Positions 40,560 through 46,732 of a DNA stretch of 64,000 nucleotides are shown here, piece by piece (positions within the stretch are counted from its first letter, which is position 1; each line of letters starts with the position of its first letter). The stretch spans positions 682,001 to 746,000 of the forward strand of contig NZ_JAAOIR010000002.1 of NCBI RefSeq assembly GCF_011440375.1. Reading direction: 5' to 3'. The stretch comes from Halorubellus sp. JP-L1. GTDB lineage: Archaea > Halobacteriota > Halobacteria > Halobacteriales > Natrialbaceae. The notes under the pieces are model-generated. The model was not told the DNA's origin and did not search any database. It was given only the letters and a program-made list of their open reading frames with translations. Made by a program: the position numbers and the translations under genes.

Positions 40560-40850
40560 CACCGCACCGCCCGGCAGAAACGGCGGCCGGGCGACTCTCA
40601 ACGGCCGCGATCGCACCGCTCAGCGGGAAACGGCGGCCGGGCGACTCTCAACGGCCGCGATCGCACCGCTCAGCGGGAAACGGCGGCCGGGCGACTCTCG
40701 GCGGCTGCGACGGCATCGCCCGGCAGAAACGGCGGCCGGGCGACTCTCGGCGACTGCGACGGCATCGCCCGGCAGAAACGGCGGCCGGGCGACTCTCGGC
40801 GACTGCGACGGCATCGCCCGGCAGAAACGGCGGCCTGGAGGCCGCCGTAT
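40560..40850. repeat. 49/50-bp tandem repeat array (five full copies and a partial sixth)
   Basis: The unit begins AAACGGCGGCCGGGCGACTC, with copies at 40578, 40628, 40678, 40727 and 40776 and a truncated copy at 40825. The first three are 50 bp with a CGATCGCACCGCTCAGCGG tail, the later ones 49 bp with CGACGGCATCGCCCGGCAG. Length not a multiple of three, so the array is not coding. It ends with a perfect hairpin CGGCGGCC-TGGA-GGCCGCCG (40829-40848) just downstream of the nadM stop, which could act as its terminator. The full gene-free stretch is 40490-40865. Confidence 0.92.
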
Positions 40851-41460: not shown

Positions 41461-42354
41461 CTAGGTCGCCTGCGGCGGCGATTCGACGTCCGTCTCGGGT
41501 CCGTCGGCGTCGCCGGACCGGAGCGAGCGGCCGTACACGACGAACACGCCGAGAGCGAAGAGACACACGACCCCGGCGAACACCCAGTGGAGTTCGCCGG
41601 TGACGGTCTGAACGCCGGGGAGCAGCAACGTCGAACTGTTGTAGCTGGCGTGCAAGATCATCGCCAGCAGCACGCTCCGGCCGGTGCTGCGGTACAGCCA
41701 CGTGAACAGGACCGACAGCCCGAGGAGCGAGACCACGTACGGGGCGAAGGACGAACCGTACTGGCCCGATCCCTCTAATGCGAACAGCGGGAGGTGCCAG
41801 CTCGCCCACACGAGGCCGATCAGGACGCTCGCGGTAACGGCGTCGAACCGTTCGAGCAGTCGTGGCAGGGCGAACCCGCGCCAGCCGAGTTCCTCCTGGC
41901 CACCGCCCACGAGGAAGACGGTCACCATGTTGAGAACGAAGATCAGCGGCAACACGAACAGCGGGACCTGCGCGAGGATCTCCGGCCCCTCGAACGAGTA
42001 GCCGATGGCGACGGTGACGACGCTCACGAGTGCGACCACGGCGATCGGGAGCCCGACGGCGACGACGTACCATCGCGGGCGAACGCGCCATCGCAGCACC
42101 TGGCTGGCCCACGCTCGCACGGAATCGCCGACGAGCCACGTGACGAACGCGGCCGCGAGCAGAGGGCCGAAGCCGCCGACGACGACAGCGGGGAACACGA
42201 ACGGCCCGTAGTCGACGATGCCGATCGCCCCCGGAACCCACGCGGCCCACGAGAAGGCGATGGTCAGACCGAAGAACGCGAGCACTTCACGGGTGGCGAC
42301 GAACGAGCCGACCGGTCCGAGGCGGGACGGATGGGCAGCGGTGTCTCTGGTCAT
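41461..42354 (-). CDS. CPBP-family intramembrane metalloprotease
   Basis: A 297-residue protease or immunity protein of the Rce1/CAAX family with about eight helices. Motif 1 is GGGQEELGWRGFALPRLLERF (around 150-170, with the EE pair), motif 2 WASWHLPLF with its His, and motif 3 ILHASYNSSTLL with the last His/Asn. It starts at ATG 42354. It is divergent from the membrane protein and HTH gene to its right and shares an operator-like region, so the three form a module. Confidence 0.88.
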   Translation of the reverse strand: MTRDTAAHPSRLGPVGSFVATREVLAFFGLTIAFSWAAWVPGAIGIVDYGPFVFPAVVVGGFGPLLAAAFVTWLVGDSVRAWASQVLRWRVRPRWYVVAVGLPIAVVALVSVVTVAIGYSFEGPEILAQVPLFVLPLIFVLNMVTVFLVGGGQEELGWRGFALPRLLERFDAVTASVLIGLVWASWHLPLFALEGSGQYGSSFAPYVVSLLGLSVLFTWLYRSTGRSVLLAMILHASYNSSTLLLPGVQTVTGELHWVFAGVVCLFALGVFVVYGRSLRSGDADGPETDVESPPQAT

Positions 42355-42391
42355 CGGTTGCGAGTGGACCACTGCGACGGAGCACCATAGC

Positions 42392-42432
42392 ACTTTGCAC
42401 TACAAAGTGACTTTGTAACAGAAAGTATTTTG
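42392..42432. promoter_or_regulatory. Operator-like inverted and direct repeats between CPBP and HTH modules
   Basis: ACTTTG (42392-42397) and CAAAGT (42403-42408) form an inverted repeat with a 5-nt spacer. ACTTTG occurs again at 42410-42415 and ATTTTG at 42427-42432. A TATA-like TATTTTG (42426-42432) faces right, 25-29 nt before ATG 42455. The HTH encoded in the same module is the natural candidate binder. Confidence 0.5.
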
Positions 42433-42454
42433 TGAAGGAGGTCAGATATGGGGT

Positions 42455-42601
42455 ATGTCAATGGAGACGATCGTCGATTCGACGGCCTTCGACGAGCGCG
42501 TTGGTGGCGGCAGTCCGATCGAATCCGAATCGGCGTCCGTCGACCGCTTCACCAGCCATACGAAACGTTCTCCAGCACGGGAGGTCTACCCCACGACATG
42601 A
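42455..42601 (+). CDS. Possible 48-residue first ORF of the membrane protein-HTH operon
   Basis: ATG 42455 opens a frame of 48 codons beginning MSMETIVDSTAFDERVGGG, acidic and serine-rich like genuine haloarchaeal protein. Its TGA overlaps the ATG of the membrane protein (ATGA at 42598). The competing frame from ATG 42448 is Arg-rich and looks like a shadow. No homologue is recognised. Confidence 0.5.
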   Translation: MSMETIVDSTAFDERVGGGSPIESESASVDRFTSHTKRSPAREVYPTT

Positions 42602-43215
42602 GCGAGACAGAGGTCGACCCAGAGTCCCTGCAGGAGGAACTCGGCCAGATCAAGGAGGCGTTGGGGCTGGCGGAGGAGCACCCCTACTGGTGGCGCTTCT
42701 GGCTCCTCGAAGGCGTCGGATTGGGGGTCACACTCCCGGTCGTCCAGGTCGGACTCCGGGATGGGTTCTCTCCACCACTCCTCGCTCTCGCGATCGGGCT
42801 GTTTCTGGCCCACCAGTTCCTGACGTGGCGAGCCCTCGAACGATACGACCGACCGACGGGCGGCGTCCCCAGCTGGAGAGCCTGGAACGTCACGTACGGT
42901 GCAGGAGCAGTGGCGGCGGCTATCGGACTGCTGCCGGTTCTGGAACGGCTCGCGACCGACGACATGTTCGTGACGGCATTCGTCGTCGCCACGGCAATCA
43001 GCGGCGTCGCATACCTCTACATGGGCCAGCTGCTCGCGTCCTACAACATCAGAGCACCGGATTGCTATGCGTTCTACACCGGCGGTGTCTGGCTGCTCGT
43101 CCTGGCCGCTGTCGTCCCGCACATTCCCCCGCTGTTGGGATGGGAGTTCGCCGTCCTCGGTATCGGTCTCGCTGCACACAACGTCGGAGCATACGTCGTC
43201 CTCTCACGGGTATAG
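42598..43215 (+). CDS. Polytopic membrane protein of unknown function
   Basis: A 205-residue protein. A soluble acidic N-terminus (1-30) with EELGQIKEALGLAEEHPYWWRFW is followed by five or six helices. No family motif is recognised. The ATG at 42598 is preferred to the in-frame start at 42448, whose extension is Arg-rich. The following HTH gene starts 1 nt after its stop. Together with the CPBP protease it resembles transporter-immunity style modules. Confidence 0.72.
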   Translation: MSETEVDPESLQEELGQIKEALGLAEEHPYWWRFWLLEGVGLGVTLPVVQVGLRDGFSPPLLALAIGLFLAHQFLTWRALERYDRPTGGVPSWRAWNVTYGAGAVAAAIGLLPVLERLATDDMFVTAFVVATAISGVAYLYMGQLLASYNIRAPDCYAFYTGGVWLLVLAAVVPHIPPLLGWEFAVLGIGLAAHNVGAYVVLSRV

Positions 43216-43216
43216 C

Positions 43217-43504
43217 ATGGAGTTCGACAAGCTGGTGCATCAGCCTACGCGGTTGCGGATCTTCGCCCATCTCTACGCGAACGGCGAGGTCAGCTTCACG
43301 GACCTCAAGTCCGAACTCGATATCACCGAGGGGAACCTCGCCAGTCACATCCAGAGGATGGAGGACGCCGATTGCGTGAGCGTCAGAAAGCAGTTCGTCG
43401 ACGGGTCTCCTCGGACGAGCTACCGATTGACCGACCGGGGCGAGGAACTGATCGAAGCCCACGTTCAGACGCTCGAATCGCTCATCGACAAACTCGACGA
43501 GTAA
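43217..43504 (+). CDS. Winged-helix regulator (ArsR/MarR-like)
   Basis: A 95-residue regulator. LVHQPTRLRIFAHLYANGEVSFTDLKSELDITEGNLASHIQRMEDADCVSVRKQFVDGSPRTSYRLTDRGEELIEAHVQTLESLID is a complete HTH_27-type winged helix with a C-terminal dimer helix. ATG 43217 follows the membrane protein stop by 1 nt. It likely controls the divergent CPBP and membrane genes through the ACTTTG repeats. Confidence 0.88.
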   Translation: MEFDKLVHQPTRLRIFAHLYANGEVSFTDLKSELDITEGNLASHIQRMEDADCVSVRKQFVDGSPRTSYRLTDRGEELIEAHVQTLESLIDKLDE

Positions 43505-43765
43505 GAATACGGACGATCGCTCTGCAGGGGGAGATCGGGCCGTGGATCGTGCGGGGATTACCGGCGGTCTCGATGCCGAGGACGAGTTCGTCGACGTCGT
43601 CCACGAACTCCTCGACCCGGATTTATAACGATGCTTGATTCCGGCCAGTTCGAATACCGACCGTAGAGGCCGCCTGTCCTGCGAAAAGTCCGAGCGGGTG
43701 GCGAGTTCTGTAGGAGGAAAGTATATCAGTCGCAATCCCTTCGGTTCGGATACCGAATCACTTCT
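43505..43765. other. Intergenic region with nadM-derived fragment and lonB promoter
   Basis: 261 bases. About 58 bp (43560-43617) match nadM at 41270-41327 with roughly 86% identity in the same orientation, giving a minus-strand peptide with DVDELVLGIETAG. Right of it lie two near-identical 12-mers, TTCGAATACCGA (43649) and TTCGGATACCGA (43745), and the TATA-like GTATATCA (43721-43728). Confidence 0.65.
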
Positions 43766-45910: not shown

Positions 45911-46732
45911 GTGACGGCGTGGACGGCGTTCGCGTCGGTCGCGGGCGTCGTCACGGTTCTCTTGCTCGCGCTCTCGCACGCGACGAGCCAGCGCTTCGAC
46001 GGACCGTCGGCGGACGACTCGGTCGACGCGGTCGGCGAGCGCGTGGACGCAGTCGGCGAGCACGTCGACGCGGTCGGGGAGTGCGAGGACGTCGCAGACG
46101 ACAGCGTCGCCGAAGGCGGCGAGATGGGCGAGGTGCCGCGGCTCTCGCAGCCGCTGCTCCTTTTGAACGTCGCGCTCTCGCAGGGGGCGTTCGGGGTCGT
46201 GCTGGTCGTGGCGGCGGTGCTGGCGTCCGTGCCGCGTACGGCGCTGGGGGTCGCGGACCAGCACTTCTCGGTGCTCGCGGTCGTCCTCGGCGTCGCGTTC
46301 GGAACGGTACTGTACGCGGCGAACGAGGTTGGGGGGTCGGTCGCGGACGCGTACGGGTTCGGTCGCGGCGACGAGCTCCGCGAGTTGCTGGCGCCGGCGT
46401 CCCGAACGGGGTGGGTGATCCTCCTCGGTGGCGTGCTCCCGGTCGTCGCGACGTTCGAGGAACTGCTCTTTCGCGGTGTGCTCGTCGGGGCGTTCGCGGC
46501 CGGCGCGGGCGTGTCGCCGTGGCTGCTCGTCGTTCCGGCCTCGATCCTGTTCGGGCTCGGACACGGCACTCAGGGCCGGATGGGCGTCGTCGTCACGACT
46601 GCGCTCGGGGCGGTGCTCGCGGCCGCCTTCGTCGTCACGGGGAGCCTGCTGGTCGTCGTCGTCGCGCACTACCTCGTGAACGCCCTGGAGTTCGTCGTCC
46701 ACGAGCACGAGCTCGGCCACGCGAGCGGTTGA
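45911..46732 (+). CDS. CPBP-family intramembrane metalloprotease
   Basis: A 273-residue protein with six to eight helices. The acid pair is in ATFEELLFRGVLVGAF (near 182-197), the first His in FGLGHGTQGR and the last in VVAHYLVNALEF. A loop at about 35-60 carries three VDAVGE repeats, encoded by 21-bp DNA repeats near 46020-46085. GTG 45911 lies 6 nt after the lonB stop, so both are probably co-transcribed, which links membrane proteolysis by two systems. Confidence 0.85.
   Translation: MTAWTAFASVAGVVTVLLLALSHATSQRFDGPSADDSVDAVGERVDAVGEHVDAVGECEDVADDSVAEGGEMGEVPRLSQPLLLLNVALSQGAFGVVLVVAAVLASVPRTALGVADQHFSVLAVVLGVAFGTVLYAANEVGGSVADAYGFGRGDELRELLAPASRTGWVILLGGVLPVVATFEELLFRGVLVGAFAAGAGVSPWLLVVPASILFGLGHGTQGRMGVVVTTALGAVLAAAFVVTGSLLVVVVAHYLVNALEFVVHEHELGHASG

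Follow-up and report, generated by a model that had tools for sequence, protein, structure and literature searches.

What kind of genetic unit is formed when a gene for a CPBP-type protease faces, across one control region, an operon of a very small ORF, a polytopic membrane protein (MP) and a winged-helix regulator (HTH)? The question is raised by a locus of Halorubellus sp. JP-L1 situated within the 64,000-nt stretch of DNA analysed here (the window; 682001-746000 of contig NZ_JAAOIR010000002.1). The original prediction described the locus as a self-regulated unit, inserted between nadM and lonB and matching no named system. We find that the parts of the unit belong to known kinds. Judged by comparison of related loci, its core is MP and HTH behind a palindromic operator and not the CPBP protease. 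The features of the locus are listed in Table 1.

Table 1. Features of the CPBP and MP–HTH locus (positions in the window)
Feature	Position	Strand	Evidence or remark
CPBP (Rce1-like) intramembrane protease gene	41461..42354	minus, divergent	Pfam PF02517, E 2.3e-17
TATA-like box of the CPBP promoter, GCTATGG (ACTATGT in relatives)	42383..42391	minus	Adjoins operator site 1
Operator site 1, ACTTTGCACTACAAAGT	42392..42408	no strand	PWM score 26.6; conserved in 36/36 MP–HTH loci
Operator site 2, ACTTTGTAACAGAAAGT	42410..42426	no strand	Spacing to site 1 exactly 18 bp
TATA-like box TATTTTGT of the MP–HTH promoter	42426..42433	plus	Adjoins operator site 2; same element after the operator in ABC-type operons
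48-codon ORF, probable leader/relic of lost ABC genes	42455..42601	plus	Stop overlaps the MP start (ATGA)
MP, 205-aa membrane protein	42598..43215	plus	AlphaFold pLDDT 85.7: N-terminal helix and six TM helices
HTH_34 (PF13601) winged-helix regulator, 95 aa	43217..43504	plus	Pfam E 9.8e-21
nadM fragment	43526..43616	plus	Scar on the side facing lonB; 80% identical to nadM gene part 41235-41325

Proteins encoded at the locus

The divergent arrangement of the CPBP, MP and HTH genes was confirmed, with Pfam matches for CPBP and HTH and no family for MP. The CPBP translation scores 63.5 bits against PF02517 (gathering score 22.4 bits) and contains all of the motifs EELGWR, WASWHLPLF and HASYN; against the NCBIfam MmRce1 equivalog it reaches 57 bits, below the cut-off of 425. 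HTH scores 74.1 bits with the PF13601 profile (gathering score 27 bits), and its closest solved structure is that of Pyrococcus PH1061 (1ub9; PDB profile match with E 7e-14). For MP, profile and sequence searches returned no Pfam or NCBIfam family, SdpI included, and no sequence relative in the PDB; a fold search against the PDB gave no match below E 0.3. The AlphaFold model of MP, built with 26 relatives in the alignment, has a pTM of 0.78 and six long helices; its N-terminal helix (residues 8-22) is probably cytoplasmic. All three genes evolve under purifying selection (dN/dS ~0.06-0.33). Elsewhere in the window, an ORF downstream of lonB (45911-46732) looks by eye like another membrane protein of the CPBP type (EELLFRG, LGHGTQG, HYLVNALEF).

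The conserved pair and its CPBP neighbour

MP was detected in 32 of 149 related genomes and HTH lies immediately 3′ of it at each match; the scattering that would speak against a unit was not seen for this pair. The CPBP gene behaves otherwise. The check originally suggested was a search for the pair beside CPBP genes; the pair does recur, but a divergent CPBP gene adjoins it in only 2 of the 35 related MP–HTH loci. Three other CPBP homologues (56–62% identity) sit amid unrelated genes with the operator absent. On these grounds CPBP was ruled out as the core of the unit. In the three CPBP loci, including that of the window, the CPBP proteins are 60–66% identical (dN/dS ~0.26-0.33), and linkage of CPBP, MP and HTH has been kept in three genera despite differing flanking genes.

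We use the term ‘MP–HTH_34–operator module’, coined in the present analysis, for an MP gene directly before an HTH_34 gene with a palindromic operator ahead of the operon; the window has both of these traits. HTH homologues with neither MP nor operator occur in Salinadaptatus (L077/L120) and Halopiger djelfimassiliensis (L097/L148) and are candidates for orphan or repurposed regulators.

A palindromic operator shared by two promoters

The ACTTTG repeats earlier noticed in the shared control region proved to be two copies of a palindromic 17-mer of the form ACTTTG-N5-CAAAGT, located 37 bp from the CPBP ATG. The chance expectation for this operator in the window is 0, and the rest of the 3.76-Mb genome has just two further, weak sites when up to two mismatches are allowed. 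An operator-like site is present upstream of the operon in 36 of 36 haloarchaeal loci and in none of 36 equally long downstream regions, the position weight matrix (PWM) having been derived from haloarchaea, in part from the same loci. Thus, no haloarchaeal MP–HTH pair lacked the site, i.e. we saw no pair whose regulator is conserved without the repeats. Where two sites were resolved, their spacing is exactly 18 bp (14 of 14 loci). Among the 149 relatives, nine places match ACTTTGYRNYRCAAAGT exactly, every one ahead of an MP–HTH operon; with one mismatch, the operator was found in 19 of the 32 MP-positive genomes vs 7 of the 117 MP-negative ones (p 2e-10).

The TATA-like box on the CPBP side is present in all three CPBP loci; visual inspection of ABC-type operons did not reveal it. 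Autoregulation of the unit, as originally proposed, is well supported.

The operator and the pair in bacteria

The archaeal matrix was built partly on its own loci; therefore, bacterial loci constitute an independent test. Among 42 bacterial HTH_34 loci, from Hymenobacter, Saprospiraceae, Thermaceae, Spirochaetales, Phycisphaerae and Sulfurovum among others, the archaeal PWM (score above 12) placed an operator before the gene upstream of HTH in 36; shuffled regions gave 8 of 840. In about half of the bacterial loci a second operator follows HTH, mostly ~300 bp past the HTH start and ahead of the next gene; nearly all loci of this kind are from Bacteroidota. In the five such loci that we read, this next gene codes for CreD in three (E < 1e-137) and for DUF4153 in two from Hymenobacter. 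These Bacteroidota loci (L153, L176, L179, L161 and L171), with an operator between HTH and the CreD or DUF4153 gene, may represent an HTH_34 regulon of uncharacterised membrane proteins. The gene that follows HTH in Thermaceae and Spirochaetales codes for an ABC ATPase.

The haloarchaeal MP has near full-length profile similarity to the MP type of Thermaceae, Spirochaetales and SAR86 (hhalign probability 94%, E 1e-7). In the profile comparison with the ‘SSRFISLSGLSG’ type of Bacteroidota, the N-terminal helix alone aligns. All MP types have in common their position, size and N-terminal helix as well as the operator and the regulator. Homology of all of them is likely; for the Bacteroidota type it rests on position, operator and the N-terminal helix. 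HTH relatives from distant lineages of the same phylum (L239-L242, L245-L248) are preceded by a membrane protein of another family (MTAQIDLNKIEQKAYRDSQQDGLMELMMG...), and strong operators exist at some of the distant same-phylum HTH loci (L246, L248). A search of viral contigs found no relative.

We tentatively propose that archaea and bacteria share an undescribed one-component signalling module in which an HTH_34 repressor, acting at a palindrome that hardly varies, is under the control of a six-TM sensor with a cytoplasmic N-terminal helix, and in which the membrane effector served by this operator can be an ABC-2 exporter, CreD, DUF4153 or CPBP, although this generalization is somewhat more doubtful than not.

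Exchange of an exporter for a protease

The usual haloarchaeal operon encodes an ABC-2-like permease (~285 aa) and an ABC ATPase (~300 aa, with C-terminus ...YTDLFNYYT...), followed by MP and HTH as genes three and four. The permease and ATPase genes are absent from the operon of the window, and a search with a single query found no homologue of the permease in its genome. The same layout, in which CPBP is divergent and the ABC genes are lacking, was found in two relatives only: on a plasmid of Natronosalvus halobius (G065, NZ_CP099998.1) and in Saliphagus infecundisoli (G027). The MP tree groups the MPs of the three CPBP loci in a single clade (support 99/97) that falls within the ABC-bearing operons; therefore, ABC loss and CPBP gain are derived. 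The tree and gene content thus show an exchange of effector, exporter for protease, that probably happened once. In another family, an MP–HTH locus without ABC genes (L081, genome G140) has its own operator and lies ~3 kb from nadM–lonB beside a TenA-like gene (identified by eye); this is possibly an independent ABC loss near the same neighbourhood.

The small ORF has a bearing on this history. It had been described as an acidic ORF of 48 codons; its reading frame is indeed open, but we rejected it as a conserved protein, as it has no homologues and the Natronosalvus and Saliphagus sequences differ by 6/12/3 at the three codon positions. In the three CPBP loci its lengths are 48, 27 and 27 codons, and each copy ends in an ATGA overlap with the start codon of MP; the N. 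halobius copy has no annotation. The start is 25 nt from the centre of the TATA-like box in the window and 26 nt in both relatives, i.e. at the position of a leaderless start.

Comparison of the N. halobius ORF with the 3′ end of the ATPase gene gave a DNA score of 31 (shuffled mean 18.9, maximum 27) and a protein p of 7e-4. For the window, the tail of the ORF matches the ATPase C-terminus marginally (protein p 0.02), and at the DNA level the best score of 27 is not significant (shuffled mean 21.3, maximum 30); in Saliphagus, the match to the ATPase C-terminus is absent. Therefore, the case for a relic rests on N. halobius, position and phylogeny, which together make the ORF a probable remnant of the deleted ABC genes, possibly retained as a translated leader coupled to MP. 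Its start might conceivably derive from the permease start, which it resembles by eye only.

Loss of the ABC genes, a non-conserved leader ORF and the existence of solitary CPBP homologues could also indicate that the whole locus is a decaying relic, in which the exporter was lost and the unrelated CPBP gene happens to lie nearby without being functionally linked to it. We hold this to be quite improbable given the purifying selection on CPBP, MP and HTH in three genera, the linkage kept amid differing flanks and the intact operator that adjoins both promoters.

Insertion between nadM and lonB

In 8 of 8 nadM-bearing genomes examined, nadM and lonB are direct divergent neighbours; these include a congener (G001) whose lonB is 95.6% identical. 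Since the pair is intact elsewhere and an 80% identical piece of nadM is present on the lonB side of the unit, the proposed insertion is supported. The fragment itself and the tandem array reported beside nadM are both real; the array (40564-40835; 5.5 copies of 49 bp, 93% match) lies between the gene for SAM hydroxide adenosyltransferase and nadM. The plasmid location of the N. halobius unit, with an IS5 transposase nearby, fits mobility of the unit.

A model of regulation

We favour, as probable but by no means certain, an autoregulated envelope-response unit composed of HTH–operator autorepression, an MP sensor and an exchangeable effector. The HTH_34 protein would bind the two 17-bp palindromes spaced by 18 bp and, to judge from operator position alone, would most likely repress both CPBP and MP–HTH, because the TATA-like boxes of the two divergent promoters each touch an outer half-site. 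Upon envelope disturbance, MP would free the operator by keeping HTH at the membrane, as SdpI does with SdpR; this putative sensing role is drawn from the analogy and from the constant pairing of MP with HTH.

A different division of labour is conceivable. HTH could be a cytoplasmic one-component repressor with a ligand of its own, and MP a mere effector, such as a transporter or channel, that sends no signal to HTH. One repressor governing several membrane effectors is a common type of operon, HTH_34 is a compact stand-alone winged helix, and the MP families diverge highly across phyla while HTH and operator are conserved. We consider this the less plausible arrangement: a protein of 95 aa offers little outside the winged helix for ligand binding, and MP with its conserved N-terminal helix is constant while ABC, CreD, DUF4153 and CPBP vary.

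In the favoured model, the effector gene is exchangeable, the ancestral ABC-2 exporter having given way here to a CPBP protease presumed to act on membrane substrates. The swap of exporter for protease suggests that the effectors answer the same signal. This signal may be envelope disturbance, given that ABC-2 exporter, CreD and CPBP, the effectors found linked, are all membrane proteins; the link to CPBP was seen in three genomes only and is probably of single origin. The small ORF would be what is left of the deleted ABC genes and would probably still be translated, passing ribosomes on to MP via the ATGA overlap.

The unit may have an immunity or envelope-stress role. Immunity in the narrow sense would mean that CPBP and MP guard against a membrane-active peptide, a bacteriocin or halocin, as SdpI does against SdpC. 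ABC-2 exporters and CPBP proteins recur in peptide resistance and maturation, which fits this idea, as does the plasmid-borne copy in N. halobius. The layout, too, is like that of sdpRI (PMC1626106). Yet no obvious precursor-peptide gene was seen adjoining the three CPBP loci, PADLOC matches neither CPBP nor MP and finds HTH only weakly, at the wHTH level, and so wide a distribution in bacteria points to a general signal more than to a specific one; specific immunity is thus unlikely, and the envelope-response unit is the reading that we retain.

Archaea and bacteria use different basal promoters, and still the operator and HTH_34 have been kept from haloarchaea to several bacterial phyla. The unit thereby provides a testable regulatory logic for MP and its effectors, in which the operator is a ready-made reporter for the stress that MP may sense. 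Archaeal CPBP proteases also become more accessible to study through it; a review gives their roles in Haloferax as largely unknown (PMC9263693).

Comparison with known systems

The statement that no known system matches held as far as names are concerned, but the same unit recurs, unnamed, across haloarchaea and in several bacterial phyla. A literature search, conducted mostly outside subscription journals, found no description of the module, of the operator and its conservation in two domains or of the effector exchange. Among known anti-phage defence systems, PADLOC left CPBP and MP unmatched and gave for HTH a weak wHTH similarity to Csa3/CARF.

As for single components, HTH is by sequence a member of the PF13601 HTH_34 regulators typified by PH1061 (1ub9; E 1e-20), a family whose model is silent on operator, partner and effector. 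The CPBP protein belongs, with the expected motifs, to the superfamily of Rce1-like proteases (MmRce1 type); it differs from MmRce1 proper in falling under the equivalog cut-off.

In the two-gene SdpI–SdpR operon of Bacillus subtilis, SdpI is both receptor and regulator trap (PMC1626106). Like this operon, the unit in the window pairs a small HTH autorepressor with a polytopic membrane protein encoded by two adjoining genes. The differences are that SdpR is of ArsR type and the order is sdpR–sdpI, whereas the regulator of the window is of PF13601 and follows MP; that HTH scores 17 bits with the SdpR family (NF033789, cut-off 100); that MP has no SdpI match in Pfam; and that the unit has no toxin gene. 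The ABC-2 exporter operons under a small wHTH regulator are the ancestral haloarchaeal form of the unit, from which the window differs by the loss of both ABC genes and by a divergent CPBP gene.
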